Below are positions 1,316-20,106 of a stretch of 64,000 bases of DNA, piece after piece. The translations under genes were made by a program, and so were the position numbers. The notes beneath the pieces were generated by a model, which was given only the letters and a program-made list of their open reading frames with translations, did not search any database and was not told the DNA's origin. Each line of letters begins with the position of its first letter. Positions within the stretch are counted from its first letter, which is position 1. The stretch is from NCBI GenBank assembly GCA_036323355.1, contig AP028876.1, forward strand, positions 2,852,001-2,916,000. The letters run 5' to 3'. The DNA comes from Gottschalkiaceae bacterium SANA (GTDB taxonomy: Bacteria > Bacillota > Clostridia > Tissierellales > GPF-1).

Positions 1316-1858
1316 CTACATTTGCTCAAGAAGCGCCTTGCTCGGTTTAGCGATCACATAGGCTGATACCCCAAAGTCTTGATACATCTCATGCTGCCGA
1401 ATCGAGTCAACCGCTTGATTTACCGATGCTGTTTCTCCCGTAAAAGTTAGAAGTACTTTCCCGGCATTACCAACACTTCTTCTTATATTCATCAGCTCTA
1501 CGCGGCCTCCCTTGGCAGCTAAATCTGCCAGTCGAATGCCCGCGACCAAGTTTTTGGTTTCAATGATCCCCAAACTTTTCACTTCGCCTTGATAAGGAGT
1601 AAGGGTCATCGACTCAATTACACAATCAGATAGCTTGTAAACTTCATCCTTTGCAATCATGCGTTCTCTCGCAATCTGTGCGCCCGTTTTCGCTGCGGCT
1701 GAAACCGCAGCGGATTCGCCAGTAAAGAGGATGAAAAACCATCCCGGACAAATCGGCTTTGCTTCTAACAAATCAACGGGTGCCGCCTTTGCAATGGCAT
1801 CTGCTACCACAAGACCCAGTCCCATATCCTTTAATTCCATAAATCCGATTGCCTTCAT
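1316..1858 (-). CDS. pduT: PduT-type tandem-BMC shell protein (second copy)
   Basis: 180-residue shell protein with two BMC domains in tandem (about 1-90 and 92-180), the BMC-T type that forms pseudohexameric trimers. Cys37 in the loop AKPICPGWF matches the pore cysteine that binds a [4Fe-4S] cluster in Salmonella PduT (Cys38 there). The second domain starts at VKSLGIIETKNLVAG. It is the last gene of the operon, 18 bp after another PduT-type gene with the same cysteine, and is followed by a strong terminator. The two copies are clearly diverged, so this is not a recent duplication. The expected role is electron transfer across the shell, probably with PduS. That role is inferred from the family. 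Confidence 0.88.
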   Translation of the reverse strand: MKAIGFMELKDMGLGLVVADAIAKAAPVDLLEAKPICPGWFFILFTGESAAVSAAAKTGAQIARERMIAKDEVYKLSDCVIESMTLTPYQGEVKSLGIIETKNLVAGIRLADLAAKGGRVELMNIRRSVGNAGKVLLTFTGETASVNQAVDSIRQHEMYQDFGVSAYVIAKPSKALLEQM

Positions 1859-1876
1859 CAGCTCTCCCTTCCGCTC

Positions 1877-2425
1877 CTATAACAAGGAGTCGATCAACGC
1901 CTTATTTGGTGAGGAGATTGTTGTCGCATAAAGAATCTCACCCGTCATTTTATACTCGTTCAAGCAGGCTTGCACCGCCGCCTTGACCGCAGAAATTTCG
2001 CCTGAGAAAAGGGCAAATCCTTTTCCACCAAGACCTCTTGCAATCCGAATTTCAATGAGATCAACCTTGGATGCTTTCGCCGCCGCATCCCCTACCATGA
2101 CTGCCGTGACTGCCGACATGGTTTCAACCACACCAAGAGCAGAAACAGAACCAATTTCACAGGTTGCCGTCAATGCACTCATCACACTTTCATGGACATT
2201 TGACAATACATAAGCGTCGATCAAAAAGAAATCGCCAATCCGTTCGCCCACCGCAATCGATGTTTTCACAGCAGAAAGTTCGCCAGTTATGATCGTGATA
2301 TATTTTCCAGGGCAGAGGGCTGTCGCCAGTACCAACTCAACATTGGCTGACTTCAAGATCTCATCGGTTGTCTCCATGCCTTTTGCGATACTCTTAAATT
2401 CCAATAATCCGATGGTTCGTTTCAT
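1877..2425 (-). CDS. pduT: PduT-type tandem-BMC shell protein
   Basis: 182-residue tandem-BMC (BMC-T) protein. The first domain begins RTIGLLEFKSIAKGM and the second SALGVVETMSAVTAV. Cys38 in ATALCPGKYITI sits exactly where Salmonella PduT carries its cluster-binding cysteine at the trimer three-fold pore. The start codon overlaps the pduS stop by 4 bp (ATGA), implying translational coupling. It probably binds PduS and forms an electron conduit. Having two Cys-bearing BMC-T proteins in one operon is unusual compared with the single pduT of the Salmonella locus. Confidence 0.9.
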   Translation of the reverse strand: MKRTIGLLEFKSIAKGMETTDEILKSANVELVLATALCPGKYITIITGELSAVKTSIAVGERIGDFFLIDAYVLSNVHESVMSALTATCEIGSVSALGVVETMSAVTAVMVGDAAAKASKVDLIEIRIARGLGGKGFALFSGEISAVKAAVQACLNEYKMTGEILYATTISSPNKALIDSLL

Positions 2426-3774
2426 TGATCCATCCCCCCTTGCCTTTCATTTCGAATCAAAACCGAATCCTTGTCAAGTTCAATAACCTTTCCGCTAATG
2501 CTAGCGTGAACATTGGATCCCAATTTTCCCTCTGGAATCTTTGCAATCAAGTCACCTTTTTTCACGAGGTCACCCGCAGCAATAATCGGAAGTGATGGAG
2601 CACCAATCCCTTGAGAAAAGGAAATTTGAACATCTTCCACGGCCTCCGGATTCTCCCGCAGTGGAGCCGGTACATCATAAATCCGAAGTCCAAGGTTTGC
2701 AATCAAACGATGGGTCGGATAATTGCGATAGTCGCGAAAGGCTCTCGCCGTTTCTGGCGCCTTGTGATGAGAGTTCTTAATACCCATTTCACGCAATTGA
2801 CCCTTCAAAGAAATATTGAGTTTCCATGGTTGCAAATTCATGATACAAGCAATCTCACAGAGTCCGCACTCACAGCAAAGATAAGCTTCATCCAAGCTAG
2901 CAGTCGCATCCCCTAGGGATTGATAGGATGCCATTCGCATCAATTTTGCTGGGTGCAGATCATGGCCCAATTGATAACGTGGGCAAACATCTGTACAAAG
3001 ATTACAATGACAACATGCTGTCTTCGCTTCCTTCAGCATCTGAGAAATTTTCTTTTCCTTTGCCTGAATACGCACGTGATCAGCCGGTAAGACGATATAG
3101 CCCTTTGAGGCTTTTTTCACCCTGACCAACTGCGGGTCTTCAATGAGTTTTCCCATCATAGGACCCCCGTCAATCACTGCGTACGGTTCCGTCGTTACAC
3201 CGCCAGCCCATTTGATCAAGGTTGCAAGGGATGTGCCTACGGGTACCGCATAGGTTCCAGGACTGTCTACTTCCCCGGTAATCGTCACATAAGTATCTGT
3301 CACCGGTTTTCCGTCAAAAGCGTTAGCAAGGTTCAAAAGGGTTTCCACATTGACAACAACCACACCCACCTGCAAGGGGATTCCGCCCTCGGGCACGACT
3401 TTGCCAACGGTCTCGTAAACCAAAAATTGCTCATCACCTGCCGGATAGACATTCGGCATGGCCTGAACACTTATCCGTGGAAATGCTTGAACTGCAGCGT
3501 TCAAGGCATCAATCGCTCCATGGTATTTCTCCTTTAAGCCAAAGATTCCTTTCTTTGCTCCGATGGCTTCCACCCATTGATCTAGGGTTTTCACCAAAAT
3601 AGTCGCATCACGCTCCATCAATTGCTGATCTACCCGCAAAAGGGGCTCACATTCCGCACCGTTTACCACCAGATATTCCGCTTCCGCGTTCAGTTTGACA
3701 TGTGTAGGAAAGCCGGCGCCTCCGGCGCCGACAATCCCCGCATCTTGAACTAGTTGAATCCAGTCATTCTTCAT
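2422..3774 (-). CDS. pduS: PduS-type cobalamin reductase / RnfC-like iron-sulfur flavoprotein
   Basis: 450 residues. The N-terminus (GIVGAGGAGFPTHVKL, then VVNGAECEPLL) is the RnfC/NuoF-like glycine-rich FMN/NADH-binding region. An SLBB-like segment follows (about 165-230), then two [4Fe-4S] motifs of CxxCxxCxxxC type: CCHCNLCTDVCP near 254-265 and CCECGLCEIAC near 298-310. The C-terminal 80 residues resemble the RnfC hybrid biotinyl-like motif region. In Salmonella PduS reduces cob(III)alamin for PduO and binds PduT. Here it lies between pduP and two pduT copies. ATG at 3774 has AGGAG at good spacing. Confidence 0.93.
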   Translation of the reverse strand: MKNDWIQLVQDAGIVGAGGAGFPTHVKLNAEAEYLVVNGAECEPLLRVDQQLMERDATILVKTLDQWVEAIGAKKGIFGLKEKYHGAIDALNAAVQAFPRISVQAMPNVYPAGDEQFLVYETVGKVVPEGGIPLQVGVVVVNVETLLNLANAFDGKPVTDTYVTITGEVDSPGTYAVPVGTSLATLIKWAGGVTTEPYAVIDGGPMMGKLIEDPQLVRVKKASKGYIVLPADHVRIQAKEKKISQMLKEAKTACCHCNLCTDVCPRYQLGHDLHPAKLMRMASYQSLGDATASLDEAYLCCECGLCEIACIMNLQPWKLNISLKGQLREMGIKNSHHKAPETARAFRDYRNYPTHRLIANLGLRIYDVPAPLRENPEAVEDVQISFSQGIGAPSLPIIAAGDLVKKGDLIAKIPEGKLGSNVHASISGKVIELDKDSVLIRNERQGGMDQ

Positions 3775-3783
3775 GATTGACTC

Positions 3784-5190
3784 CTATCGGATGGCAAAGC
3801 CATCAACCAAAACACATCGTCGTTTCCGCGTAAAGGCACTGGCACTCGTCAAGCCTTCACCCGTTGGACCCGCAATGGTAAATGTGGTGTAGCCTTCTCC
3901 GCCAACGCCAATTCCCGCATAGGAAGGTCCATTTTTCACGAAGATGGTCGTCTGGATCACCCGTGCAAATTCCGTTAAGGTATCAATGTTCTTTGAGTGA
4001 ATCATGGCAGTATGGCGAAGACCACGCTCCAATTTCACCCCAAGCTTCATCGCTTCCCCTACATCACCTACTCGAATAATCGGCAGAATCGGCATCATCA
4101 ATTCCTCTTCTGCAAAGACATGGTTGCCAGGCGTTTCGCAGATAATCGCTCGAATCTCTTCGCCCGCGTCAATTCCGATTGCCTTAAGAATAACATGCGC
4201 ATCTTTTCCGATAAAGGCCTTGTTTGGCGCTCCCGTTTCGGTCACCACTAGATCACGCAAGCGTGTGATCGTTTCACGATCTTCAAGTAAATACGCACCA
4301 TGTTTTTGCATTTGGAAAATCAGATAATCCGCAACTTGATCCACCACAATGCATTCCTTTTCAGCAATGCATGGCAGGTTGTTGTCAAAACTGCAGCCAT
4401 CAATAATGTCCTTGGCGGCTTTCTCAATATCCGCAGTTTCATCGACAATTACCGGTGGATTTCCAGCTCCTGCGCCAATTGCCTTTTTCCCTGAGGAAAG
4501 TACAGCTTTAACAACGCCAGGTCCACCCGTTGCACAAAGCATAGAAACAAGCGGATGTTTCATCATTCGACCGACAGCTTCCATACTCGGTTCTGCCACC
4601 GTAACAACCAGATTTTCGGGAGCCCCAATTTTAATCAAAGCTTCGTTGATCCAGACAACAGTATCGATACTGATGCTTTTTGCACCAGGATGCGGACTAA
4701 ATACAACAGCATTGCCAGCTGCCAACATACCAATGCTGTTACACATAATCGTTTCCGTTGGATTTGTCGATGGGGTAATTGCACCGATCACGCCAAAGGG
4801 AGCAAACTCCAAAAGGGTTAATCCGCGATCCCCAGTAAAAACGCCGGATTGCAGATCTTCCACCCCCGGTGTCTTGTCCAATACCAATTGATTTTTAATC
4901 ACTTTCTGCGCATAGTTGCCCATACCTGTTTCTTCTACAACCCTGCGAGCCATCTCTTCAACCTTGTCTTGCAGATACGCTTTAATCGCATCGATAAATT
5001 TCTGTCGGTCTGCCAAGGTATATTCAAAGTAGGCTTTTTGGGCCTTGTATGCCGCTTCCACAGCCTCGTCCATACTCTGGAAAATTCCTGGTCGATCAAT
5101 TGGATTGCTGATTTGATCGGGTGCCTGATCCAATTGTTGAATGACCATTTTTGTGATTTGTTCAATCTCTTTTAATGTTGGTTCCATCAT
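3784..5190 (-). CDS. pduP: CoA-acylating aldehyde dehydrogenase PduP
   Basis: About 468 residues. Converts the aldehyde from the dehydratase to acyl-CoA with NAD+. Family landmarks are the catalytic cysteine in NNLPCIAEKE, the GAGAGNPPVIVDE segment and a C-terminal CVLVDGFAIR. The first 20 residues (TLKEIEQITKMVIQQLDQ) form an amphipathic helix typical of BMC encapsulation peptides. The start is ATG 5190 or the adjacent ATG 5187, both served by AGGAG. A further upstream ATG at 5235 lies deep within pduO and has no good ribosome site. The coding sequence overlaps the end of pduO by about 29 bp. Confidence 0.95.
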   Translation of the reverse strand: MMEPTLKEIEQITKMVIQQLDQAPDQISNPIDRPGIFQSMDEAVEAAYKAQKAYFEYTLADRQKFIDAIKAYLQDKVEEMARRVVEETGMGNYAQKVIKNQLVLDKTPGVEDLQSGVFTGDRGLTLLEFAPFGVIGAITPSTNPTETIMCNSIGMLAAGNAVVFSPHPGAKSISIDTVVWINEALIKIGAPENLVVTVAEPSMEAVGRMMKHPLVSMLCATGGPGVVKAVLSSGKKAIGAGAGNPPVIVDETADIEKAAKDIIDGCSFDNNLPCIAEKECIVVDQVADYLIFQMQKHGAYLLEDRETITRLRDLVVTETGAPNKAFIGKDAHVILKAIGIDAGEEIRAIICETPGNHVFAEEELMMPILPIIRVGDVGEAMKLGVKLERGLRHTAMIHSKNIDTLTEFARVIQTTIFVKNGPSYAGIGVGGEGYTTFTIAGPTGEGLTSASAFTRKRRCVLVDGFAIR

Positions 5191-6172
5191 TTGTGCTCCT
5201 TTCCCCCACGATACGCGAAAGCGCTGTTTTTGCAATCGCTATGTCCTCTTCTACGGTTCCACCGCTGACACCCAAGGCGCCGATCACGCGCTCATTGTGA
5301 AAGATCGGAATACCGCCTCCGAAGAGAACCAATTTCCCTGGGTGAGTGTTTTCAATTCCGTATAACATTGCGCCAGGTTGTGCCAGTTCGCCTACCGTTT
5401 CAGTCGGTAGACGAAGGGCTGCAGCCGTAAACGCCTTACCACGTGCAATGGCAATGCTAGCCAAAAGGGCTTGATCCATGCGCGCCTCTGCAACTGGGTT
5501 TCCACCTTCATCGCAGACAGATAAAACAAATTCTACTGGTGTCTCTCCAGCCGCTTCAATTCCGGCGGCAATGATCTCTTGGGCAAATGCCAGGGTCATT
5601 TTTTCCGGTACCCAAAGTCCAGCAGCAAGAGCCTTTGCAGCAATCGATTCAATCTGATCCCATTGATCCACCATCCTAGCCAAGGTAAAACAATAATCCG
5701 AGACTCGGTTAAAGTATTGCAAAAGAATAGGACGAATCGTTTGCTGGTCCGACAGAGCAATCAACCGTCGCTCACATCTGCGTAAAATCGTTCGCGCCTG
5801 ATGAAGGTAGGCTGATGAAAGATTTTCACCAGGATGCACAAATGCCCGAAGGGGTGCCAAGTATCGATCATACTCGTCAATCCAACCTTCCAGCCGTTTC
5901 ACATCTTTATCTTCAACTTTTTGAATCAGCCGATTTCTCCCCTTTTCATCACTGGCAACTTCCGCGCCCGCTAAAAAAAGATCTTCTTGAATGGCATCCA
6001 ACTGCGCTTTCATCGATACTTGTGAAATCGATGCCTTTGCAATTCCTAAAACCGAACTGCCTTCATCGATTGTCCCATAGGTTTCAACCAATAAATCTGC
6101 CTTTCCGATCCGAGAACCGCCAAACAAACCCGTAGAACCAGCGTCTCCGGTTTTCGTATACACTTTTGACAT
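5162..6172 (-). CDS. pduO: PduO: ATP:cob(I)alamin adenosyltransferase fused to HbpS/GlcG-like domain
   Basis: 336 residues in two domains. Residues 1 to about 170 are a PduO-type adenosyltransferase (MSKVYTKTGDAGSTGLFGG with the ATP-binding N-terminus, and RTILRRCERRLI near 140), which makes adenosylcobalamin for the dehydratase. Residues about 190-330 are the C-terminal HbpS/GlcG-like domain (VSVCDEGGNPVAEARMD-like segment, LFGGGIPIFHNERVIGALG), which binds heme in other PduO proteins. The start at 6172 is preceded by AGGTGATGAT. A longer reading from 6328 adds 52 residues out of frame with the family and overlaps eutN. It lies 4 bp after eutN. Confidence 0.94.
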   Translation of the reverse strand: MSKVYTKTGDAGSTGLFGGSRIGKADLLVETYGTIDEGSSVLGIAKASISQVSMKAQLDAIQEDLFLAGAEVASDEKGRNRLIQKVEDKDVKRLEGWIDEYDRYLAPLRAFVHPGENLSSAYLHQARTILRRCERRLIALSDQQTIRPILLQYFNRVSDYCFTLARMVDQWDQIESIAAKALAAGLWVPEKMTLAFAQEIIAAGIEAAGETPVEFVLSVCDEGGNPVAEARMDQALLASIAIARGKAFTAAALRLPTETVGELAQPGAMLYGIENTHPGKLVLFGGGIPIFHNERVIGALGVSGGTVEEDIAIAKTALSRIVGERSTNDGTNIKRD

Positions 6173-6176
6173 ATCA

Positions 6177-6449
6177 TCACCTACCGTATACTTTGACTTC
6201 ATCCACGATGGCGACAACCGCATAATCAACGGGAGCCCCTTCTTGAATGGAAATTTTTCGTGCCGCAGAACCTCTGCAGGCCAAAACAACCTCACCATTG
6301 CCTGCCCCGATATTATCGATTGCGACAACCGTTTCTCCCTTTGGATCCCCTTCCGGGGTGAGCGGTGTCAGGATTAAAAACTTTTCTCCCACCAAGAGTT
6401 CATTCTTCGTTGTTGCAACAACATTTCCAATCACTTTTGCCAGGATCAT
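6177..6449 (-). CDS. pduN: EutN/CcmL-type BMC vertex protein (PduN)
   Basis: 90 residues. A small beta-barrel of the EutN/CcmL family that forms pentamers capping BMC vertices. It begins MILAKVIGNVVATTKN, continues with LVGEKFLILTPL and contains GAGNGEVVLACRGSAAR, all typical. ATG 6449 follows GGAGG and overlaps the preceding stop by 4 bp (ATGA). A reading from 6476 adds only nine untypical residues. It lies between the flavoprotein gene and pduO, the position of pduN in Salmonella. Confidence 0.94.
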   Translation of the reverse strand: MILAKVIGNVVATTKNELLVGEKFLILTPLTPEGDPKGETVVAIDNIGAGNGEVVLACRGSAARKISIQEGAPVDYAVVAIVDEVKVYGR

Positions 6450-7234
6450 TTCATCCCTCCATCCACCCAAATCCATGGGATTTGGTGTTTTTTTATTTCC
6501 TCTTCCGCCAAGGCGGTAAGGATCGATCCCTTGGGAATCTGTATTTGTTCTGTACCAGACAAATACGGAATGACATCTCCCCGGCTAATCACTCGCTTAT
6601 CAATCCGTGCAATTCGACACAACTCTGGCAAAGCTTCCACATGATCCGGTTGAGCCGTCACATAAGCTTGCTTGGGATTTGCCGATTTTGCAAAAATAAG
6701 ATCACGATAAAGCTCATCGCTTTTGCACCAACGAACCCCAAACGATTCCAGGGTATTGAATACACGTCGACTCATTTCCTTCATGGCTGCAGGCGCTTTT
6801 TCCCGCAAAGAAAAATCACAGGCATCCCGTGCAACCCAGACTTCCTTGCCTTGCGACAAGGCTGAACCGATCAAATAGCTTGCCGGAGTATCCCATATCA
6901 TTTTTGCGATCTTGCTTGCAGTCGTGACTGTCATCACAGGCACTAGAATTCGATTGTGTTCCATGGCAAAAGGCTTGACGGATTTAAAGTTGTTGTCCAT
7001 GGATTCAGCACCATCCGGCAGTAAATCCAAGGTTCCAATCTGTCGTGCAGCTTCCGTTACAACGATTTCCGTCTTCCACCCGCCGCGCTTCAAATTTTCA
7101 GCTGCGCGAATACCGGCAGCTCGTCCCATGGTACCACCTGTATAAAGCAAAAGTGCCTCTTTTTCCGACACGTCTTTCTGATCGATGCGCACCAGCACTT
7201 CTTCTACGATCCGATCGATCAACGTTTCTGTCAT
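6446..7234 (-). CDS. BMC-associated flavoprotein with N-terminal encapsulation-type helix
   Basis: 262 residues. After a short helix the protein has a Rossmann-like flavoprotein fold of the phosphopantothenoylcysteine-decarboxylase/dihydromethanopterin-reductase kind (ALLLYTGGTMGRAAGIRAAE near 28-47, LVPVMTVTTASKIA near 100, then SYLIGSALSQGKEVWVA). The reaction is unknown. The first 18 residues (TETLIDRIVEEVLVRI) are amphipathic and match the pattern of the pduB, pduD, pduE, pduL and pduP N-termini, so I infer it is lumen cargo. ATG 7234 follows GGAGG and overlaps the eutJ stop (ATGA). With eutJ it occupies the position of pduM. Confidence 0.72.
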   Translation of the reverse strand: MTETLIDRIVEEVLVRIDQKDVSEKEALLLYTGGTMGRAAGIRAAENLKRGGWKTEIVVTEAARQIGTLDLLPDGAESMDNNFKSVKPFAMEHNRILVPVMTVTTASKIAKMIWDTPASYLIGSALSQGKEVWVARDACDFSLREKAPAAMKEMSRRVFNTLESFGVRWCKSDELYRDLIFAKSANPKQAYVTAQPDHVEALPELCRIARIDKRVISRGDVIPYLSGTEQIQIPKGSILTALAEEEIKKHQIPWIWVDGGMK

Positions 7235-8064
7235 GGCGCCACCTCCTCCTTCATCCCCCAAGCAATTCCAATGGGTGTTACAAGCAAGGGGAATTTTGGT
7301 TTGATTACTGGAATTCCCAGTATCTTTTCAAAATCTTTTTCGAAATCTTCGAAAGTAGCAGCTCCGCCAACCACATAGACTTCCGACACACCCTGTCCTT
7401 CAATGGCTCTCTTAACAATGGTTGCCATCTTCTCAACAACAGGTCGTACCAAGGGATACAATTCCATCTCCTGTTGGCCGCTACGCTTTCGCACTTCCGC
7501 CTCTTCAAAAGAGATACCGTAATTACCGGCAATCACCAAACTCATGTGGGTGCCGCCAGTGGGTTCATCTTCCACCGCGACCACCTTCCCATCATGAAGA
7601 ATACTAATTCCAGTCGTCCCGCCGCCAACATCAACGACCGCACCTTCGGTGATTCCCAAAACAACAGCTGCCGCAGTTGGTTCATCCAATACCTGCGTCA
7701 CCTCAAATCCCGCAGATTCTACCACATTGGTGATTGCACGGGTGTCTCCTGGGGCAATTCCAGGCGGTATTGCTGTTGCAGCTTCCAACAATTCTCTTCC
7801 TAATTGACGCTCCACCTCTGCTTTTAATCGCTTCACAATGCCTACTGCGCCAATATAATCGACGACGATTCCATCTTTCACAACTGAAGCTGCTTCCGCT
7901 GCCCCTGCAATGGGAAGATTGTTTTCATCGACTACGGTAATTACAATATTTGCGGTTCCCAAGTCGACTCCAACCTTGATTTTTTTTGGCGCTTCTTTTT
8001 CATCCTCCGATTCAATTAATTCATGAAAGGAAGTCAAATATTCATTAATCCGCGTTAAATCCAT
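7231..8064 (-). CDS. eutJ: EutJ-like actin/Hsp70-fold chaperone
   Basis: 277 residues. An ASKHA-superfamily ATPase with phosphate-1 motif VGVDLGTANIVITVVD near 30-45, phosphate-2 AVVDVGGGTTGISI and adenosine motif VYVVGGAATF, matching EutJ of ethanolamine loci. EutJ proteins are thought to assist BMC enzymes or assembly; the exact job is unproven. ATG 8064 was chosen because AAGAGG lies 9 nt upstream. The ATG at 8073 has the ribosome site abutting it. It follows pduL closely and couples to the flavoprotein gene by an ATGA overlap. Confidence 0.85.
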   Translation of the reverse strand: MDLTRINEYLTSFHELIESEDEKEAPKKIKVGVDLGTANIVITVVDENNLPIAGAAEAASVVKDGIVVDYIGAVGIVKRLKAEVERQLGRELLEAATAIPPGIAPGDTRAITNVVESAGFEVTQVLDEPTAAAVVLGITEGAVVDVGGGTTGISILHDGKVVAVEDEPTGGTHMSLVIAGNYGISFEEAEVRKRSGQQEMELYPLVRPVVEKMATIVKRAIEGQGVSEVYVVGGAATFEDFEKDFEKILGIPVIKPKFPLLVTPIGIAWGMKEEVAP

Positions 8065-8069
8065 CGGTT

Positions 8070-8699
8070 TCATCCTCTTTTTATAATCTTCACGTACGAT
8101 CCAGTCGTTAGTGAGAATCCATTCGCTTCATCAACGTCTACATGCATCTCCATGGCAAAATTCGGCGATACGCGCAAAAGCACGTGATCCATTTGACCAC
8201 CGCGATCTCCAGGCACAGCCACAGAGACAATCTCACGATCAATAAAACCGTGACGATCTGCATATTCCTTCGGCATATGAACATGCCGAAGTGCCGCAAT
8301 AGCCCCCTGTGGAATCTGAACAGAACCAGCAGGACCCACCAAGGTCAATCCTGGTGATGCATCTAAAACTCCAGACTCCCGTACAGGCGGTTTCACGCCA
8401 ATGCGAAATCCATCCGTGACCGAAAGTTCCAATTGTGTCGCGCTTCTAAGGGGGCCAAGAATCCGAACCTTATCGAATCGTCCTTTAGGTCCCTCTACCG
8501 CGATACATTCTTTCGCCGCATATTGCCCAGGCTGCTTCAAGTCTTTCAGTTTTGTTAATGTCGCTCCACGCCCAAAAAGCTGAAAAAAGTCCGCTTGACT
8601 GAGATGGATGTGGTGGTTGGAAACTCCAACCTCCACATATCCCAGTTCATTCATGACTCGATCCACGCATTCTTTGACGAAAGCTTCTTCTCTCGTCAT
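8070..8699 (-). CDS. pduL: Phosphotransacylase PduL
   Basis: 209 residues. BMC-type phosphate acyltransferase that turns acyl-CoA into acyl-phosphate and recycles CoA. Metal-binding histidines are in VSNHHIHLS near 25-33 and RHVHMP near 138-143. The C-terminal DVDEANGF and a duplicated barrel are typical. The N-terminal TREEAFVKECVDRVMNEL is an encapsulation-type helix as in other BMC PduL enzymes. No acetate/propionate kinase gene (pduW) was found in the window, so the last ATP-yielding step must be encoded elsewhere. Confidence 0.95.
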   Translation of the reverse strand: MTREEAFVKECVDRVMNELGYVEVGVSNHHIHLSQADFFQLFGRGATLTKLKDLKQPGQYAAKECIAVEGPKGRFDKVRILGPLRSATQLELSVTDGFRIGVKPPVRESGVLDASPGLTLVGPAGSVQIPQGAIAALRHVHMPKEYADRHGFIDREIVSVAVPGDRGGQMDHVLLRVSPNFAMEMHVDVDEANGFSLTTGSYVKIIKRG

Positions 8700-8707
8700 C
8701 GTTTACC

Positions 8708-8983
8708 CTACTTTCCTTTTGGTAATATTTGTTCCGTATCCGCATGCGGACGAGGAATAACGTGTACAGATACCACTTTTCCTACACGCTCAGCTGCTGC
8801 ACTTCCTGCATCGACTGCGGCCTTTACAGCACCTACATCACCGCGAACCATCACAGTTACCAGTCCGGAACCTATTTTTTCGTATCCCATCAATTGGACA
8901 TTTGCCGCTTTTGTCATTGCATCGGCTGCTTCAATCGCTCCAACTAATCCTTGTGTTTCAACCATACCTAATGCTTCACCCAT
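8708..8983 (-). CDS. pduJ: Single-domain BMC shell protein (PduJ/PduA type)
   Basis: 91-residue BMC-H shell protein. It contains [20 protein letters not shown] and the pore loop KIGSG. It is very close to the pduA product at 15522-15800, differing by conservative changes plus two residues at the start. ATG 8983 follows GAGAGGAAG. A 10-residue upstream extension from 9013 would lie inside the preceding gene. It forms hexamers tiling the shell facets. It sits directly after the PduK-like gene. Confidence 0.93.
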
Positions 8984-8985
8984 GA

Positions 8986-9657
8986 TTACACTTCCTCTCC
9001 ATAATGTATGCAAATTTTACGTGGATCACCTTTTTTTCTCGAACAAGCAGGATCCTTGCAGAGGTTACAACTTGCTTCCGTTACCGGTCCCTTATTGTCC
9101 TGCAGATCTTCAGCTTCCGCCTTCATCGCGGCTGCTAAATCCAACTTCCCTTTTTTTGGCTTTTCCGGTTTTGATTTCTTCTTCGACTTTTCAACCACTT
9201 CTGCTTGAATCATCGCTTCCGGTTTTTCAGCCGGTTCCTGCTTCTCAGCAGGTTCCGCAATTGCCTCCGGTTTGCCTTCAGGTGTTTTTTCTACTTCAGA
9301 TTTCTTTTGGCCCTTTGACGCCTTTTTCCCTTTTTTCTTCGGGAAATCTTCGCCAACGGTATCTGGCGAAAATATCAACTGGTCAATCGCTTTTGATGGT
9401 CGTGCAATTACCTTTACACTAACCACTTGGTTGACCCGCTCCGCTGCTGCTTTTGCCGAATTAACCGCAGCCTTTACAGCCCCAACATCTCCAGCAATCT
9501 TCACGGTTACCATACCAAATCCTTTACTTAATTCGATCCCAATCAGTTTGACGTTGGCAGATTTCACTGCCGCATCCGCTGCCTCAACAGCGGCGGCCAT
9601 TCCTATGGTTTCGATGAGTCCTAGCGATTTTTTCAGAAGGATCCCCTCCTTTCTCAT
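8986..9657 (-). CDS. pduK: PduK-type BMC shell protein with long Lys/Glu/Pro linker and Cys tail
   Basis: Up to 223 residues. The N-terminal BMC-H domain ([20 protein letters not shown] to about residue 95) has the pore loop SKGFG instead of KIGSG. A charged, presumably disordered linker of about 85 residues, rich in Lys, Glu, Pro and Ala, follows. The C-terminal knuckle has [20 protein letters not shown], four cysteines likely to bind iron-sulfur or zinc, similar to the PduK tail. ATG 9657 overlaps the pduH stop (ATGA) but lacks a good ribosome site. GGAGG lies 8 nt before an in-frame CTG at 9636, which would give the canonical KKSLGLIE start. Confidence 0.88.
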
Positions 9658-9998
9658 TCATCACGCAAGGGCATGCGCTTCACTAGCCTTGCACTGTTGT
9701 TGCCAAAAACTCTAGCCCGCTCATCCGAACTTCGTTTTGCAAGTTGCATATAGGGACTAAGTCTTTCCAGTTTTTTGTGATGGAGGGCAAAATTCCCCTC
9801 CCTATCCATTCCAATTCCCACTTCCAATTTTGACCGTTCCGCCGCTTCGTAAGCCATGGCTTCAACCGATGTATTATCCGTTTCCGTTATCGATACCGGT
9901 ACCTGTTCTTCTTCAATACCATAAAGGACCTGCATCAGACTCGAATGATGCGCGTTGCCCCGCGCAACCAATACTTCAATTCTCGGTCGATTATCCAT
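9654..9998 (-). CDS. pduH: Diol dehydratase reactivase, small subunit PduH
   Basis: 114 residues. Small subunit of the B12-dependent diol/glycerol dehydratase-reactivating factor (PduH/DdrB). It opens RPRIEVLVARGNAHHSSLMQ and contains GIEEEQVPVSI, typical of the family, which resembles the dehydratase medium-subunit fold. It swaps into the dehydratase so that damaged cobalamin can leave. ATG 9998 follows AAGGAGG and overlaps the pduG end by 8 bp, consistent with a coupled heterodimer. Confidence 0.95.
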   Translation of the reverse strand: MDNRPRIEVLVARGNAHHSSLMQVLYGIEEEQVPVSITETDNTSVEAMAYEAAERSKLEVGIGMDREGNFALHHKKLERLSPYMQLAKRSSDERARVFGNNSARLVKRMPLRDE

Positions 9999-11814
9999 GA
10001 CGTTCTTCCTCCTTAGCGAGGATCAATCCTGTTGCTACCGCATTCCGTGGTCCTTCCGTACCTCGAATATTGCCGCGTCCCGCTACCACGCCGAATTTCG
10101 ACAAAGCATCCGTTACCAATTGCGGCACTTCAAAGTCAAGAGCCGATCCGCCTACAAGTACCACATATTCGATATCCCGTAGATTTCCCGTTAAACTCAC
10201 AGATTTTAAGGCGCGAAGCGCGTTTACAACAAATACCTTTCGTTTGGCGTCCCGTCGAACCTCCCGGATCCTTTCCATAGAAAGATCTCCAGGCAAAGGC
10301 AGCATCATGCCATCTTTCAAAATTGCCACTCGAGCATAAACTTTGGGATCGATAGGTTTGTCAAAGAATTGTACACTCCCTCCTTCATGTCGGATATGAA
10401 AGAGACTTTCCCCCTTTGCCAATGGATATTTTTTTATATCCTCGGCAAGTTCAGGGCCTTCAAGTCCCAATTCCGTTTGAATCAAGAGGGTTACCATATT
10501 CCCGGCACCCGCCAAGTGAATCGACTGAATCTCCCCGTCCCGATTGATAATCGAGGCGTCGGTGGAACCTGCCCCCATATCCAAAATCGCCAATGGCGCC
10601 TTGGTTCCAGGGGTTGTTAGAGCACCACGAATTGCCATGTCGGCTTCTACACCGCCTACGGCTACGGGAATATTCAAATCACCGCTTAATGCATCCGCAA
10701 TGGTCTGCATCTGCAAGCGGTCCGCTTTCACCATGGCCGCCACGCCTACAGCGTTCTCCATGGCAAATTCTCCAGCCAATCCACCTTTCACCGCTTGCGG
10801 CACAAAGGTATCAACAGCCAATAAATCTTGAATCTGAATTTTTGTAGCGACTTGACCCGTCAAATTTGCCATAACTTGGCGAACCCGTTCCAGCATGCCA
10901 CCGGCATTGGTGCCCGGCTCTCCCTTAATATCTGTAATCGGCATACAATTGCTCACGCAAGTCATCATCTCTTCTGCGCCCGCTTCCACATCTACTTCAG
11001 ATCGTTTCGTTTGTCCAATAATTCGAATTTTTCCAGCTGGAATATGCTTTGCCCGCACATCGCCTGCCGGCGTTTTAATGACCACAGCCGAACGATTGCC
11101 GATCAATGCCCGTGCGATGGGTACGATCGACTTGGTTTCTTCCGCAGTTAATCCGAATACCGTCGCAATCCCATAGGGATTGGAAAGGACTTCAATTACA
11201 TTCCCCGGTCCAGCCACCTCAACAGATGTCAACATCCGCTGTGGAATTTTCTCGAAAAGTGTAACCTCATCAATAATTGGCATCTTTACATCTAATCGAT
11301 TATGAATCAGCACTGCGTCATCATATTGTGCAATCACACCTTGAACCTGATAGCCATTGGCTGTCAATTTATTAATTTCTCTGGCTGCATCGTCAAAATC
11401 AATACCACGGTCCACCAAAGCAATAATTGGCTGGTCACGATCACTCGGTCCAATCTCCCGCAAGGGAATGGAAATGCCCACACCAACACCGATCCCACCT
11501 GGGGTCGATGGATTATGACCAATCATAGTTGATTCGGTTATAATCGTTTCCGTAATGGTTTCCATGGCAACATCACCAATAACAGGTGCTGCCTCATTAA
11601 TACGAATCTCAGAAATCGAAGTAACAGGAATGTTGGCTTGGTTTGCTGCCATCTTTAAAGAGGAGTAAACGCCCCGCAAATTATCCTTGGTCCCCTTGAT
11701 CCCCGTGGTTTTCACAATACCGGTCGCCTCAAATGTAAGAGCCTTGCCCTCGCTCTTTGCGAGGGCCGTTTCAGTTGTCGCATTTCCAATATCGATTCCA
11801 GCAATCCATGTCAT
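9991..11814 (-). CDS. pduG: Diol dehydratase reactivase, large ATPase subunit PduG
   Basis: 607 residues, the usual length for PduG/DdrA. It has an ASKHA ATPase core with GIDIGNATTETALAKSEG at the N-terminus, PSTPGGIGVGVGISIP near 125-140 and ILDMGAGSTDASIINRDGE near 405, plus a swiveling domain in the middle. It releases inactivated cobalamin from the dehydratase using ATP. The start has AAAGGAGG at standard spacing. It lies 17 bp after pduE. Confidence 0.96.
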   Translation of the reverse strand: MTWIAGIDIGNATTETALAKSEGKALTFEATGIVKTTGIKGTKDNLRGVYSSLKMAANQANIPVTSISEIRINEAAPVIGDVAMETITETIITESTMIGHNPSTPGGIGVGVGISIPLREIGPSDRDQPIIALVDRGIDFDDAAREINKLTANGYQVQGVIAQYDDAVLIHNRLDVKMPIIDEVTLFEKIPQRMLTSVEVAGPGNVIEVLSNPYGIATVFGLTAEETKSIVPIARALIGNRSAVVIKTPAGDVRAKHIPAGKIRIIGQTKRSEVDVEAGAEEMMTCVSNCMPITDIKGEPGTNAGGMLERVRQVMANLTGQVATKIQIQDLLAVDTFVPQAVKGGLAGEFAMENAVGVAAMVKADRLQMQTIADALSGDLNIPVAVGGVEADMAIRGALTTPGTKAPLAILDMGAGSTDASIINRDGEIQSIHLAGAGNMVTLLIQTELGLEGPELAEDIKKYPLAKGESLFHIRHEGGSVQFFDKPIDPKVYARVAILKDGMMLPLPGDLSMERIREVRRDAKRKVFVVNALRALKSVSLTGNLRDIEYVVLVGGSALDFEVPQLVTDALSKFGVVAGRGNIRGTEGPRNAVATGLILAKEEERHG

Positions 11815-11831
11815 GAGATTGCCTCCTTTGC

Positions 11832-12338
11832 TTAAACTCGCAGTCGTCCCCGTTGCTCATACAATTCTGCAGCTTCACGAATAAACGCTCCGTTGATTTT
11901 TGCACTATATTGATTTTCCAATTCATCTGCAATCGCAATCATTTCGCCCTTTGTTGATCGATACGGACGAAGTGCATTATAAATTTCCAACAAACGATCA
12001 TCGGGAACCGCAATCAGTTCTGCTGCTCGTCGAAGGTTGCGTGCAAAGGCGTCCCGACCAACAGATTCAGCAATCTGCGCTTGCATTTCAAGCGTTTCCG
12101 GTCTGATTTTACAATCATCCGCTGTAACCGATCCATTCATTACACCTTCCAGGGTAATCTCGTTTAAAGATTTTCCTGTTGGCGATTTAATTTGGTCTTG
12201 TCTGCGTTCACTCAATGGATAATCTCGATCAGCTGTCGCAACATTACCCTTAGCCACTGGGGCTGATGGTGCGTCGCCGCTCATCTGCTTCATCACTTCT
12301 TGAACGATGCTCTCTAACATATCTTTTTGATTCATCAT
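11832..12338 (-). CDS. pduE: Diol/glycerol dehydratase small subunit PduE
   Basis: 168 residues. Gamma subunit of adenosylcobalamin-dependent diol or glycerol dehydratase. It is recognised by DYPLSERRQDQIKSPTGKSL near 40-60 and NALRPYRSTKGEM near 123. The N-terminal 20 residues (NQKDMLESIVQEVMKQM) form an encapsulation-type helix. Two adjacent ATG codons (12338, 12335) follow GGGGGTG. It lies 8 bp after pduD. Confidence 0.95.
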   Translation of the reverse strand: MMNQKDMLESIVQEVMKQMSGDAPSAPVAKGNVATADRDYPLSERRQDQIKSPTGKSLNEITLEGVMNGSVTADDCKIRPETLEMQAQIAESVGRDAFARNLRRAAELIAVPDDRLLEIYNALRPYRSTKGEMIAIADELENQYSAKINGAFIREAAELYEQRGRLRV

Positions 12339-12346
12339 TACACCCC

Positions 12347-13009
12347 CTACGAAAACTTCACATCAAGTGTTACGGGCTTTGCGTGTGGTACCACATGCTC
12401 CGTTTCCTTGATATGCAACAAAGCTGCGATCGCCTGGTACTTTGGTCGTGCCATCTGATCGTTCATTGTTGGCACTGGTGCTGGAGATTCGCCTTTGGCG
12501 TATTTCGCAGCATTTTTGCCAATTGCACGGAACACCGTCGCAGTCAACAATGGCGCTTGAGGGAATAATTCCAGGTTGCTTAATTGCATCAAATCTTTTT
12601 GATGAATAACCGTGGTTCCCTTTGATTGGATACCAATACCAATACCTGAGCCGCTCAATTTCGCCGCGCGATGGGCGATCATAGCAACATCAGAGGTATG
12701 AGTAACACGAATCACTCTCGCCTTCAAACCCTCTTCTTCAATGCCCGCAATCACTTGACGAAGCACTTCACGATGTGGTATTTTAACGATCGTCGCATTT
12801 TGGAATTTGCCAAAAGCTGGTGCAACAGCGATTACTACTTCATCACTCTTTCGTCCTTCTTCAGCAATGGCGCCTTCTGTCAAAGTCAAACCGCCGGTTT
12901 CCGGAACAGGTGCTGACTTTTGAGTAACGGCATTTCCATTATTTTCGAATTGATAATTTTTCAAAACTTCTTCAATTACACTGCGTACTAGGTTCTCATT
13001 AATTGTCAT
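12347..13009 (-). CDS. pduD: Diol/glycerol dehydratase medium subunit PduD
   Basis: 220 residues. Beta subunit of the dehydratase, contacting the cobalamin. Typical segments are [20 protein letters not shown] near 55-75 and [21 protein letters not shown]-type sequence near 127-147. The N-terminal [19 protein letters not shown] is a long amphipathic helix, as in PduD of Salmonella where it targets the enzyme to the lumen. The ribosome site is AAGGGGGGAT. It lies 12 bp after pduC. Confidence 0.95.
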
Positions 13010-13021
13010 CTCGATCCCCCC

Positions 13022-14689
13022 TTACTCAAAATCCGTCGCATCAATCGCGTTCGGAATATTCTTAATCTGATCCCATCGATCTGAGCTCATCTGGTATCCA
13101 GTGCTTGGACCCGCATAATCATTGCAATTGTTGACTGCAGAGATTACGTGGAAGTTCTCATCGATAATTGCTGAAGTATGTAGATGATCACCAGAAACGC
13201 GCATCTTCATCATATTCAACAAATCGCCTGCTACACCTTCGTATCCGCCGTTATGAAGCGCTTTAATTACATCAACACCTGTGACTTTTCTTTCCATCAT
13301 CTCCTGTGCTGCTTTCAAGTCTTCAACTACATTTCTGTCCGGCATATCTTTTGAGCCGTGGGCATAAGTTGCTGCTTCCACTTCTTCATCGGTGATTTCA
13401 GTCAAGTCTAGGTTCTTAAAGACAGCCTGCAAAACTTTTGCCGCTTTATTCCGAACCTTAACGACTTCTTCTTCTGTAACGGGTTGAAGACCACCATCAA
13501 CTTTTAAGTCGCGCTGAAGAACATTGTAGTCATCATAGTCATCTGCATCAAAGTTTGAACCGGCAAACATATTGTCGTAGTTCGGTGTTGCAGAATATCC
13601 AGAGAAGATAAAGTCTGTTCCAGGAATCATCTGCATCAAGGTTCTTGCTGTCCGACGAATTGGTGAGTGAGAGAAGGTTTGGTCATTGCCTGATGCAACT
13701 TCCATATCCAACATGGTTGTAATGACGTTTTCTGCCAAGACCGCACGAATTCCTGAAGGAACCGCACCCGGTACACCAATACAGCTGATGGAACCGTTTT
13801 GCAAGCCTTGTACGCCGGCTGCTTTTGTAATGAAAACACAACGAGCTTCAAGATATAACATGGATTTGCCTTCCGCATAACCCATCTGAACTTCTGAACC
13901 TGTACCTGATGTAAATCGCATTTTCAATCCGCGTGATGCATATGCAGAAGCCAAGAATGCTTTTGACCACGGCGTATCATCGCCATCGACAAATACTTGC
14001 TCGGTTCCGTATACGGATACTGTTTCCGCATAGGCAGTTAAGCCCCGCATGCCGAGTTGCAATTCAGTTGCTTCTTCAACAGCACATTGAGTTAAGACAC
14101 CTGGACGTCCGACTTGAGAACCAACCAACAATGCCAAAGCATTGAAAGGTGCATATCGAACAACACCAACAGTTGTCTCATGCTCATCGAATCCACGAAG
14201 AGCCGCCTCTGCAGAGTCTGCAGCGATCTGTACGGGATGATCCTTCACATTGGTAACATGACATTGATTGGATGGCGTTTTTCTAGGTCGCATCTTTGTC
14301 AAGGCCATCATCATTTCAAGAACATTCATTTTTCCCATAACTTCCGCTGCTTTTGCAGGAGTCATGGCGATGGTGTATTTAACCATCTCACTTCGCGGTA
14401 CATTAACATCAACCAACATCTTTGCCAAGTCTACAGAAGGAATTGCCATAACTTCTTCTGCTCGAGATAATTCAATCCCATACTCTGCGATAAAACTATC
14501 AATTAAGTCAAAGTCTGCCCGTTTCTTTCCATCTAATTCCACAACCTTGCCGTTTTGAATCTTAATGCTTGGTGTGGGGTCATTGGGACCATCCATGGCG
14601 ATCAAGCCTACTTCTGGCCACTCTTTGATAAATCCATCCTTATTAACATCGCGTTCTGCTAGTACTTGAAAACGTTTTGATCTCTTCAT
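13022..14689 (-). CDS. pduC: Diol/glycerol dehydratase large (catalytic) subunit PduC
   Basis: 555 residues. A TIM-barrel adenosylcobalamin enzyme converting 1,2-propanediol to propanal or glycerol to 3-hydroxypropanal. Residues matching the Klebsiella oxytoca active site, offset by one, are present: His144 (NQCHVTN), Glu171 (DEHETTVG), Glu222 (YAETVS), Gln297 (QNGS), Ser302, Asp336-Gln337 (GNDQTF) and Ser363 (FIFSGYSA). It should therefore be active. Sequence alone does not separate propanediol from glycerol preference. The ribosome site is AAAGGAGG. Confidence 0.97.
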   Translation of the reverse strand: MKRSKRFQVLAERDVNKDGFIKEWPEVGLIAMDGPNDPTPSIKIQNGKVVELDGKKRADFDLIDSFIAEYGIELSRAEEVMAIPSVDLAKMLVDVNVPRSEMVKYTIAMTPAKAAEVMGKMNVLEMMMALTKMRPRKTPSNQCHVTNVKDHPVQIAADSAEAALRGFDEHETTVGVVRYAPFNALALLVGSQVGRPGVLTQCAVEEATELQLGMRGLTAYAETVSVYGTEQVFVDGDDTPWSKAFLASAYASRGLKMRFTSGTGSEVQMGYAEGKSMLYLEARCVFITKAAGVQGLQNGSISCIGVPGAVPSGIRAVLAENVITTMLDMEVASGNDQTFSHSPIRRTARTLMQMIPGTDFIFSGYSATPNYDNMFAGSNFDADDYDDYNVLQRDLKVDGGLQPVTEEEVVKVRNKAAKVLQAVFKNLDLTEITDEEVEAATYAHGSKDMPDRNVVEDLKAAQEMMERKVTGVDVIKALHNGGYEGVAGDLLNMMKMRVSGDHLHTSAIIDENFHVISAVNNCNDYAGPSTGYQMSSDRWDQIKNIPNAIDATDFE

Positions 14690-14708
14690 CTTCTTCCTCC
14701 TTTACTGC

Positions 14709-15500
14709 TTAAATATATGGAGTGGTAGCGGATTCACATTTTTCACCCATCGTTTCAAGAAGCTTGACGCCTACTTCTTTCGCTGTAAGAACCGCTTGTC
14801 GAACCGCCCCTGAATCGCCTGTGATAAAAAGAATCACTTCGTTCGTAAAGCTAGTCGTTGAAGGAGATGCATAAGACAAAACTTCTACATTGGCCGCTTT
14901 AATAGCCGCATCGGCAGTAACTACACCAATGGCCGCTGGTGCACCTACGATTAATCCAAACGATTTACCCAATGGAGCATTCCAAGCTTTATTACAAGCG
15001 TAACTTGCGCGCGCTGTGTATTGAAGTTCCATATATCCCACTTCATTGCCCCAAACATCGCCAAAGGTTCTTTCAATTTCTTTTAAGGTTACTTCAACAG
15101 CACGTCTTACGTCAGATACGTCTTCTGCACCAAAAATAATCAAGTTACCATGACCCGCTCCACCTTTGGTATCACGAGGCAATTCAATAGAAATGATCTC
15201 AGTATTGGTCGCTTTTACAGCTTCATCAGCTGCCATAATATGAGGACCAGCTCCAGAACGTGCGCCAATAATACCGATAGATCGATATTTTTTGTCAAGT
15301 TTCATTGACTCCGCTAATTGATCATCTACATTAGCAATGACCAAACCGATGGTATCACCAATTTTTGATGCGCCTACAAACTCAGTCAAGTTGCAACCAA
15401 TCTTCACGGGTGCAGTTTTAGGAGCTGCTTCAGGGGTTTCTGCGCCACCGAGTTTTTTCATTACTTCTTCTACCATTTTTTCCATTAATTGATCTGACAT
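14709..15500 (-). CDS. pduB: Tandem-BMC shell protein PduB
   Basis: 263 residues. BMC-T shell protein of the PduB type, with an N-terminal extension (SDQLMEKMVEEVMKKLGG) before the first domain (KIGCNLTEFVGASKIGDTIG) and a second domain from about 150 (YMELQYTARASYACNKAW, then SFGLIVGAPAAIGVVTAD). It forms gated trimers. In Salmonella the PduB extension links shell to core. It lies between pduA and pduC, the canonical order. The ribosome site is AGGAGG. Confidence 0.95.
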   Translation of the reverse strand: MSDQLMEKMVEEVMKKLGGAETPEAAPKTAPVKIGCNLTEFVGASKIGDTIGLVIANVDDQLAESMKLDKKYRSIGIIGARSGAGPHIMAADEAVKATNTEIISIELPRDTKGGAGHGNLIIFGAEDVSDVRRAVEVTLKEIERTFGDVWGNEVGYMELQYTARASYACNKAWNAPLGKSFGLIVGAPAAIGVVTADAAIKAANVEVLSYASPSTTSFTNEVILFITGDSGAVRQAVLTAKEVGVKLLETMGEKCESATTPYI

Positions 15501-15521
15501 ATTCTTCCTCCTATTCCCAAC

Positions 15522-15800
15522 CTATTCTGCTTTTGGCAGGATCATTTCCACATCTGTATGGGGACGTGGAATTACGTGAACAGAAACAACTTCGCCTACA
15601 CGATCAGCCGCTGCTGCACCGGCATCAGTGGCAGCCTTAACTGCACCAACATCGCCGCGAACCATCACCGTTACCAAGCCGGACCCTATCTTTTCATATC
15701 CGACCAATGTAACATTAGCTGCTTTAACCATGGCATCTGCTGCTTCCACTGCGCCGACTAGACCTTTTGTTTCTATCATGCCTAGTGCTTCTTTAACCAT
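15522..15800 (-). CDS. pduA: Major BMC-H shell protein PduA
   Basis: 92 residues. Single-domain hexameric shell protein with pore loop KIGSG ([20 protein letters not shown]). First gene of the operon. ATG 15800 was chosen because AAGGAGG lies 7 nt upstream and the product then starts [16 protein letters not shown] like PduA. Longer readings from 15806 or 15854 run through the ribosome site. It is nearly identical to the pduJ product within the same operon. Confidence 0.95.
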
Positions 15801-15950
15801 TACCATTCCTCCTTTTCGATTTGGCTTCTTCGCCATTCTTCTATATGCTACCAAAAAACGCTTTCCAGTCCGCCATAAGGAGAAGTTCTCTTCCTACACT
15901 TTTTGACAATTCGCCCCGACGATTTTACTCTTCTCTAGCACTTTTTTGCA
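15801..15950 (-). promoter_or_regulatory. pduA upstream region: paired repeats and cre-like box
   Basis: Reading the minus strand, two related boxes lie 42 bp apart: AAAAAGTGCTAGAGAAGAG (15946-15928) and AAAAAGTGTAGGAAGAG (15904-15888). A similar pair precedes pduU, so these are candidate binding sites for the AraC-type response regulator encoded just upstream. A cre-like sequence GGAAAGCGTTTTTT (15866-15853) lies closer to the gene and could mediate CcpA repression. No convincing -35/-10 pair could be assigned, which fits an activator-dependent promoter. Confidence 0.5.
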
Positions 15951-15974
15951 TATAAAAAAGACCCTCATTGAGGG
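15951..15974 (-). terminator. Terminator of the kinase/response-regulator operon
   Basis: 7-bp GC-rich stem GACCCTC/GAGGGTC with a 3-nt loop, followed on the minus strand by TTTTTT. The stop codon of the response-regulator gene lies inside the stem-loop. It separates regulator transcription from the pdu promoter. Confidence 0.85.
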
Positions 15975-16999
15975 TCCACCTTTTTCCGTACGCGATTGCG
16001 ATATTGCGAAGGGGTTATCCCTTCAATTTTCTTAAATACCCGTGAAAAATAATTAGGCTCATTAAATCCCAATTCATAAGCGATTGCAATCAAATTTTCA
16101 TCAGTATACTTGATTCGATCCTTGGCTTCTTCCATTCGACATCGTGTTAAATAGGTAGAAAAATTTTCACCAGTCTCCCGCTTAAACAATTTACTCATAT
16201 AATGAGCGCTTAGATTCATATAATCCGCAACCCGCTGCAAGGATGGATTTTCCTTATAATAGCGATTGATGTAATTGACTGCGAATTCGATCTCCGTATC
16301 AAAACAGGAGATTTTTTTCTCAATGATCCAATCGAAGATCGTTTGGAGTACCGCTTCCATATACTGAATACTCGCCATTTTGTCGCGTTGATAAAAGGAT
16401 GCTTCGAATCCTTCAAGACCAATCCCCTCTGTTTGAATCCCCAACTCATGCTCTTGCTGAACCAGGCTCATAAACAAACTGCGCAAATGACTTCTTTCAG
16501 ACTCCCGATCCTCGTGGGCAAGCCGGCAATATTGTAAAAAAGCTTCCCTCGCCTTTTGATAATCACCCAAAACAATTTGCTGGTTCAGGGTATGAAGGAC
16601 CTTTTTCAGGTTTGCCTCATAAGACAGATGATTTTCCTGCAAAGAACGTTGAATAACCTCTACCACCTCATCGGGTTTTGGCGGCTTCAAAATATAATCC
16701 TTCACGCCCAGCTTGACAGCGCGTTGCGCAAAAGCAAAATCTGCATAAGCTGTTAAAAAGACAACGGCAGGATCCCGCGTCCCGTCTAAAATCAAAGAAG
16801 CTGCTTCCAATCCATCCATAACGGGCATCTTGATATCAAGAATAATCAAATCCGGAAAATGCTCTTCATACATCTCCACGGCTTCTTTTCCATTTTTTGC
16901 TTCAAGTATTTCAACCAATCCAGGAAACTTTCTCAGAATAATCATCTTCATGGATTGGCGAACAAGGACTTCATCATCAACGATCAAAATCTTCCACAT
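15965..16999 (-). CDS. AraC/YesN-type response regulator
   Basis: 344 residues. The N-terminal receiver domain has the acidic pair in VDDE, phosphoacceptor Asp in LIILDIKMPVMDG, Thr in FLTAYADF and Lys in YILKPP. A helical linker region of about 110 residues follows, then a C-terminal AraC double helix-turn-helix (VADYMNLSAHYMSKLFKRET, then IAYELGFNEPNYFSRVFKK). It overlaps the kinase gene by 23 bp. GTG 17002 and ATG 16999 are adjacent; ATG has the better spacing from AAGGAG. It is the likely activator of the pdu operon and pduUV, inferred from position and shared upstream repeats. Confidence 0.9.
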   Translation of the reverse strand: MWKILIVDDEVLVRQSMKMIILRKFPGLVEILEAKNGKEAVEMYEEHFPDLIILDIKMPVMDGLEAASLILDGTRDPAVVFLTAYADFAFAQRAVKLGVKDYILKPPKPDEVVEVIQRSLQENHLSYEANLKKVLHTLNQQIVLGDYQKAREAFLQYCRLAHEDRESERSHLRSLFMSLVQQEHELGIQTEGIGLEGFEASFYQRDKMASIQYMEAVLQTIFDWIIEKKISCFDTEIEFAVNYINRYYKENPSLQRVADYMNLSAHYMSKLFKRETGENFSTYLTRCRMEEAKDRIKYTDENLIAIAYELGFNEPNYFSRVFKKIEGITPSQYRNRVRKKVDPQ

Positions 17000-18230: not shown

Positions 18231-18313
18231 GGTTTCTCCCTTCAATTCTACTGATTCCCATATTGTTTTGGTCTGTAATGAAATTTTATCAGATTTATTT
18301 GTTAAATCATACT

Positions 18314-18327
18314 GGAAAGCGCTCCCA
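18314..18327 (+). promoter_or_regulatory. cre-like box upstream of the PocR kinase
   Basis: GGAAAGCGCTCCCA matches the CcpA consensus TGWAANCGNTNWCA at 12 of 14 positions. Its left part ACTGGAAAGCG is repeated exactly upstream of pduA on the other strand. It is a candidate catabolite-repression site for the regulator operon; not proven. Confidence 0.4.
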
Positions 18328-18422
18328 ATTTGACCAAATGACAAAATCTTGCTCGTTTCCAACAAGAACCTTTCCTTTTATTTTCCATTAATTTGCTATC
18401 ATTAAAAGCAGGAGGAACGATT

Positions 18423-19181: not shown

Positions 19182-19199
19182 AGAAACGCCTGCTTTGCT
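19164..19199. terminator. Hairpin between parA and pduV
   Basis: Long stem (19164-19177 with 19183-19195, one bulge) and a 5-nt loop holding the parA stop codon. On the minus strand it is followed by TTTTT and should terminate pduUV. The plus-strand T-tract is weak. Confidence 0.8.
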
Positions 19200-19200
19200 G

Positions 19201-19988: not shown

Positions 19989-20050
19989 GAGTTTCCCCCT
20001 TTTTTCTAAGTGTAGCAATAGCAAAGCAGAAAGAGAAGAAAGGTTTTCGC

Positions 20051-20106
20051 CCACTTCCTATACTTTTCGATCTTAAATTGGCTTATTTTTCCACTTCAGA
20101 CTTTTC
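20051..20106 (-). promoter_or_regulatory. pduU upstream repeats, candidate response-regulator sites
   Basis: On the minus strand, GAAAAGTCTGAAGTGG (20106-20091) and GAAAAGTATAGGAAGTGG (20068-20051) form a near-direct repeat. The core AAAAGTATAGGAAG differs by one base from AAAAGTGTAGGAAG upstream of pduA. This supports one shared activator. Confidence 0.5.

Follow-up and report, generated by a model that had tools for sequence, protein, structure and literature searches.

A complete Pdu microcompartment operon is located on the minus strand of the window (the whole stretch of DNA analysed here, 64,000 nucleotides of Gottschalkiaceae bacterium SANA). The question raised by this locus is the role of one gene in it (to be referred to as X), which lies between a eutJ-family gene and the vertex-protein gene pduN. 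A reading of the sequence only had taken its product for a flavoprotein with an encapsulation-type N-terminal helix, and had proposed a flavin enzyme of the lumen that is absent from the textbook Pdu pathway. Our analysis points instead, with a probability of roughly two in three, to a core-to-shell linker of the Pdu microcompartment in the slot of PduM. The features discussed below are as follows.

1316..15806, minus strand: whole Pdu microcompartment operon, with genes A B C D E G H K J L eutJ X N O P S T T2 (T2 is a second PduT-like gene)
6177..6449, minus strand: pduN, BMC-P vertex protein (PF03319, E = 2.6e-29), with an ATGA overlap with X
6446..7234, minus strand: gene X, a putative flavoprotein-like linker in the PduM slot (TIGR02536-related), 262 residues, ATG start
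6461..6598, minus strand: residues 213-258 of X, putative C-terminal docking module (about 45 residues), common to the C terminus of PduM and the N termini of EutQ and EutT
6650..7162, minus strand: residues 25-195 (approximately) of X, flavoprotein-like (PF02441) body with the TGGTMG loop, TEAA and PVMTVTTASKIAKMIWD
7178..7231, minus strand: residues 2-19 of X, encapsulation-peptide-like amphipathic helix (TETLIDRIVEEVLVRIDQ), from the encapsulation-peptide profile
7231..8073, minus strand: eutJ-family actin/Hsp70-like protein (TIGR02529), with an ATGA overlap with X
8070..8699, minus strand: pduL phosphotransacylase with an encapsulation peptide

Gene X and the pduM slot

The open reading frame named by the sequence-only reading is real. 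A strong Shine-Dalgarno sequence, AAGGAGGAGG, is located 7 nt ahead of its ATG at position 7234, and an alternative TTG start is present upstream, at 7261. The ATG of X overlaps the stop codon of eutJ, and the start codon of pduN overlaps the stop codon of X, as ATGA in both cases. With these overlaps and the strong Shine-Dalgarno sequence, X is probably translationally coupled to pduN.

The gene order in the window, pduL-eutJ-X-pduN-O-P, corresponds to pduL-eutJ-pduM-pduN-O-P in the pdu locus of Listeria and to pduL-pduM-pduN in enterobacteria. X occupies the pduM slot. In the host genome, which contains a single vertex gene, nothing but X matches the TIGR02536 model, and the C-terminal module is found in none of the other open reading frames of the window. 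The cluster genes (1316-15806) include no evident alcohol dehydrogenase of the pduQ type.

The PduK-like shell protein at 8986-9639 carries a Cys-rich C-terminal tail, a possible metal or Fe-S site. A PocR-type sensor kinase/response regulator pair (15965-18365) adjoins a group at 18393-20054 that encodes a ParA-like ATPase, a PduV/EutP-like GTPase and an extra BMC protein. The genes at 15965-20054 may have roles in the positioning and control of the organelle.

The distribution of X relatives was examined in 299 genomes of the host phylum, not chosen for microcompartments. Bacilli and Enterobacterales were sampled through a few named loci only, and genomic frequencies given here are those of the host phylum. 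The body is included in 35 of the matches to the TIGR02536 model, and 32 of these are followed, after 12-62 bp and on the same strand, by a BMC-P gene; the other three are about 1.95 kb upstream of one. Most of the module-only matches (40/43) are within 12 kb of a BMC-P gene, and such a gene is present in 60 of the 62 genomes with a match (hypergeometric P about 4e-41). Only two near relatives came out of a scan of genome contigs. The PduM model finds no true PduM in the 299 genomes. It gives ten sub-threshold matches, nearly all on the module; eight of them are the C-terminal 40-60 residues (approximately) of X-family reading frames, and the remainder are in G071 and G200. Within the X family itself, 23 of 36 members match this model. 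A PduM search of viral sequences gave no match.

The N-terminal helix and the flavoprotein-like body

A profile was trained on ten encapsulation peptides, those of PduB, D, E, L and P from the window and from Salmonella. Out of 342 possible starts across the window, that of X ranks directly behind the five training genes and is the first from a gene outside the training set (E = 0.009, 11.1 bits), which bears out the likeness to pduB, D, E, L and P that had been proposed. Its score equals that of E. coli and Salmonella PduM, and a signal helix as in PduM is thus present in X at the level of sequence. With the same small profile, 27 of 51 X-family members are above the 1% shuffle threshold, a count affected by uncertain start predictions in several of them. 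The chain of EpiD, the closest relative of known structure, starts directly with the first strand of the fold, and the roughly 25 residues that precede this strand in X are therefore an extension. The AlphaFold model of X, a poor one (pLDDT 39, 3 sequences), has a helix at residues 2-18. Encapsulation peptides consist of a terminal amphipathic helix of 15-20 residues and a linker, and X has both, with a short linker at residues 19-24. The helix signal is real and beyond chance, though its score alone is modest, and X is likely targeted to the lumen or core.

The body of X taken alone is below the gathering cut-off of PF02441 (17.4 bits against 22.7, E = 0.0035), and a phmmer search of the PDB with X alone gave nothing of note. 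On the other hand, 34 of the 36 family members match PF02441 at E ≤ 0.01, and the 36-member family profile finds EpiD (1.4e-9) and dipicolinate synthase B (DpaB, 7.4e-6) in the PDB, as well as UbiX, CoaBC and AfpA. The first entry of this list, 7mcd, is an AI-designed TIM barrel and was discarded as a repeat artefact. The claimed flavoprotein superfamily relationship is thus correct at the level of the family but marginal in X itself.

The family alignment has three motifs, TGGxxG, [S/T]xxA and PxLTxNTxxKxAxGIxD, the last of which aligns with the PASANT region of EpiD. The flavin-site-like residues are frequent across the family (N104 76%, T105 76%, K108 94% and D115 92%), but in X and its genus the PASANT Asn is replaced by Thr104 and a Gly by Met112. 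HFCD decarboxylases have a catalytic His and the motif PxMNxxMW. Neither this motif nor the catalytic His of the decarboxylases is conserved in the alignment, which makes EpiD-type catalysis by X unlikely. Flavin binding seems possible at the level of the family and doubtful for X. The TIGR02536 arm is clearly related to the X family over both body and module (hhalign probability 99.9%, E = 2e-31, 204 columns), and it has no flavin motif and no PF02441 match.

These data bear on the strongest alternative, that X is an FMN-binding redox protein or electron shuttle of the lumen, imported by its helix and acting with PduS, PduO or PduT. The FMN enzymes EpiD, UbiX and AfpA are matched by the family profile, the family keeps its three motifs, and an electron-shuttle role has been suggested by Axen et al. 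(PMC4207490). We nevertheless regard this explanation as unlikely. The family has no conserved catalytic His or PxMNxxMW, X and its genus carry the substitutions at positions 104 and 112, and the other occupants of the slot have no such motif, neither PduM nor the TIGR02536 proteins, which have lost it. Moreover, this explanation leaves the C-terminal module without a role. A flavin enzyme as the main function of X is thus not borne out, and an extra enzyme of this kind in the lumen seems less likely than a linker. Nor is the family entirely new to microcompartment loci: it takes the place of PduM, and PF02441 proteins were already reported in microcompartment loci, under the name 'flavoprotein', by Axen et al. 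(PMC4207490). No paper that links PduM or EutQ to the flavoprotein family was found among the open-licence literature.

The C-terminal module and a proposed core-to-shell linker

The module, like the pduM slot, had no part in the sequence-only reading. It is the most conserved part of the X family, with the consensus ...VIT..D.......I.V....IITPLA.D.A.E..I.I., and just three positions (T240, L242 and A243), all inside it, are invariant across the 36 aligned members. In profile-profile comparisons, the C terminus of X matches that of PduM with 97.9% probability, a set of EutQ N termini with 99.2% (E = 2e-19) and EutT N termini with 98.3%, and 60 column-shuffled decoys reach at most 4.7%. For EutQ, EutT and each of five PduMs, the real module score was beyond all of 3000 shuffles. 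By these profile scores, the module of X is homologous to the C terminus of PduM and the N termini of EutT and EutQ. The direct comparison of EutQ with PduM is weaker (50-77%), which counts against a linker role. The AlphaFold model of residues 200-262 has a pLDDT of 38 and is unusable.

The module is fused to EutQ cupins, EutT and, at either end, phosphotransacylases. In PduL/EutD-type phosphotransacylases it is C-terminal in L113:1909-2835 and N-terminal in L094:2273-3106 and L102:2282-3091. An unusual fusion near a vertex gene, a 639-residue reading frame on the minus strand (L106:618-2534), combines the module with an encapsulation-peptide-like helix and an aldehyde dehydrogenase domain. 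A fusion to an ACT domain (L107:2277-2756, minus strand), in a genome where no BMC-P gene was detected, is the only clear use of the module outside microcompartments among the reading frames examined. The module bears a likeness to the pyruvate dehydrogenase E2 peripheral subunit-binding domain, the two halves of which would be exchanged in position, but the match to 1w4i is not significant (E = 0.12). PF02817 is touched in L101 and L103, and a circular permutation of the E2 binding domain is possible, though unproven.

The helix-like sequence, the fold family, the module homology, the gene position and the erosion of the motif were computed here; binding of the shell by the module, binding of the core by the helix and the structural role are proposed from published experiments on PduM and EutQ. 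In the linker proposed, the N-terminal amphipathic helix of X would insert into the enzyme core alongside the encapsulation peptides that PduD, E, L, P and B carry, and the C-terminal module would attach to the shell from inside, in the manner of EutQ residues 1-41. Between them, the flavoprotein-like body would be mainly a folded spacer or oligomerisation domain, with a flavin site that may be optional or decaying, and loss of X would separate the core from the shell. X would thereby be the linker that Gram-positive organelles reportedly lack.

The comparison of the proteins in this slot argues for such a role. X has a flavoprotein body and TIGR02536 proteins have a decayed one, and the middle part of PduM is unrelated or unrecognisable. 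In the TIGR02536 arm the flavin motif is gone, and the helix, the module and the slot at the vertex gene are kept. The helix, module and slot, which are the parts with known functions in assembly, are common to all three and the bodies differ; the most economical reading is that this slot is selected for the linking of core and shell. Three further observations count against the linker. The middle of PduM shows no homology to the body of X (hhalign probability 0.4-0.6%), nor to that of TIGR02536 proteins. Most family members keep flavin-site-like residues that a pure spacer would not need. In a mutant whose PduB has no N terminus, PduM is retained at the core without associating with the shell (PMC9132943), and therefore the module need not bind the shell strongly in Pdu systems.

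The module might instead dock on BMC-P rather than on the facets, with X as a vertex assembly factor that binds or loads the PduN pentamer. The near-universal adjacency to BMC-P and the ATGA overlap with pduN are consistent with this, as are the elongated or oversized shells of PduM mutants (PMC9132943, PMC12108088). However, the module-bearing EutQ is not adjacent to eutN and is reported to bind the EutM/EutL interface (PMC12487888), and the adjacency may only reflect an ancestral operon order. We consider a vertex factor slightly less probable still than the redox protein. A cobalamin-handling flavoprotein that serves the adenosyltransferase PduO is very improbable: pduO and pduS are nearby, X has a weak MMACHC-like match (E = 0.038) and EutT, itself an adenosyltransferase, carries the module too, but that match is below the cut-off and many relatives have no PduO match within about 1.5 kb on each side (for example L010, L026, L039-L043 and L045-L052).

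Comparison with known systems

The module connects PduM with EutQ-type proteins and makes X a testable candidate linker for the organelles of Bacillota. It is conceivable, though we put it forward tentatively, that the module of about 45 residues, as yet without a name, is a metabolosome shell anchor shared across phyla and carried by PduM, EutQ, EutT, some phosphotransacylases and the flavoprotein-like X/TIGR02536 family, that X is the linker thought to be missing in Gram-positive organelles, and that in X-type members a retained flavin site might make assembly responsive to flavin or redox state. The module would also be a second, shell-directed engineering tag beside encapsulation peptides.

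The HFCD/PF02441 flavoproteins (EpiD, CoaC, DpaB and UbiX) share with X a PASANT-like region and, going by the family profile, the fold of the body. In comparison, X has the additional N-terminal helix and C-terminal module and is without the decarboxylase catalytic motifs.

The TIGR02536 ethanolamine utilisation proteins (Listeria lmo1183-type) are homologous to X over their full length and share the slot before eutN, the helix and the module. They are shorter, however, and have lost the flavin motif together with the initial part of the flavoprotein body. Listeria carries the module both in its TIGR02536 protein, encoded immediately ahead of eutN, and in EutT. CD1921 of C. difficile, described as of 'unknown function', is in the same slot (PMC3483176).

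The N terminus of EutQ from Salmonella and E. coli, a published core-shell linker, also has the module (residues 1-45) and an encapsulation-peptide-like helix. The order is reversed relative to X, with the module first, and a cupin domain is present instead of the flavoprotein. Residues 1-41 of the Salmonella protein are associated with EutL/EutM of the shell, the stretch 62-99 binds to encapsulation peptides, and a protein without residues 9-99 leaves the shell separated from the core (PMC12487888). EutQ of Enterococcus and Listeria is without the first three helices, from which a different mechanism in Gram-positive Eut organelles was inferred (PMC12487888).

PduM (TIGR04493, PF15953) shares with X the slot between pduL/eutJ and pduN, the N-terminal signal helix and the homologous C-terminal module, but it has only about 160 residues and no detectable flavoprotein body. 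The N terminus of PduM functions as a signal sequence (PMC12108088), and mutants without PduM show a partial separation of core and shell (PMC9132943). Homologues of PduM outside Pdu organelles are said to be absent (PMC12108088), and pduM is reported absent from A. woodii (PMC7593272). X reaches 14 bits with TIGR04493 (cut-off 50) and 18 with NF011957 (cut-off 179), over its C-terminal part only, and 47.3 bits with the TIGR02536 model (curated cut-off 152.6). Being below the curated cut-offs of both families, X is placed in neither, and by analogy it would work in the manner of PduM and EutQ.
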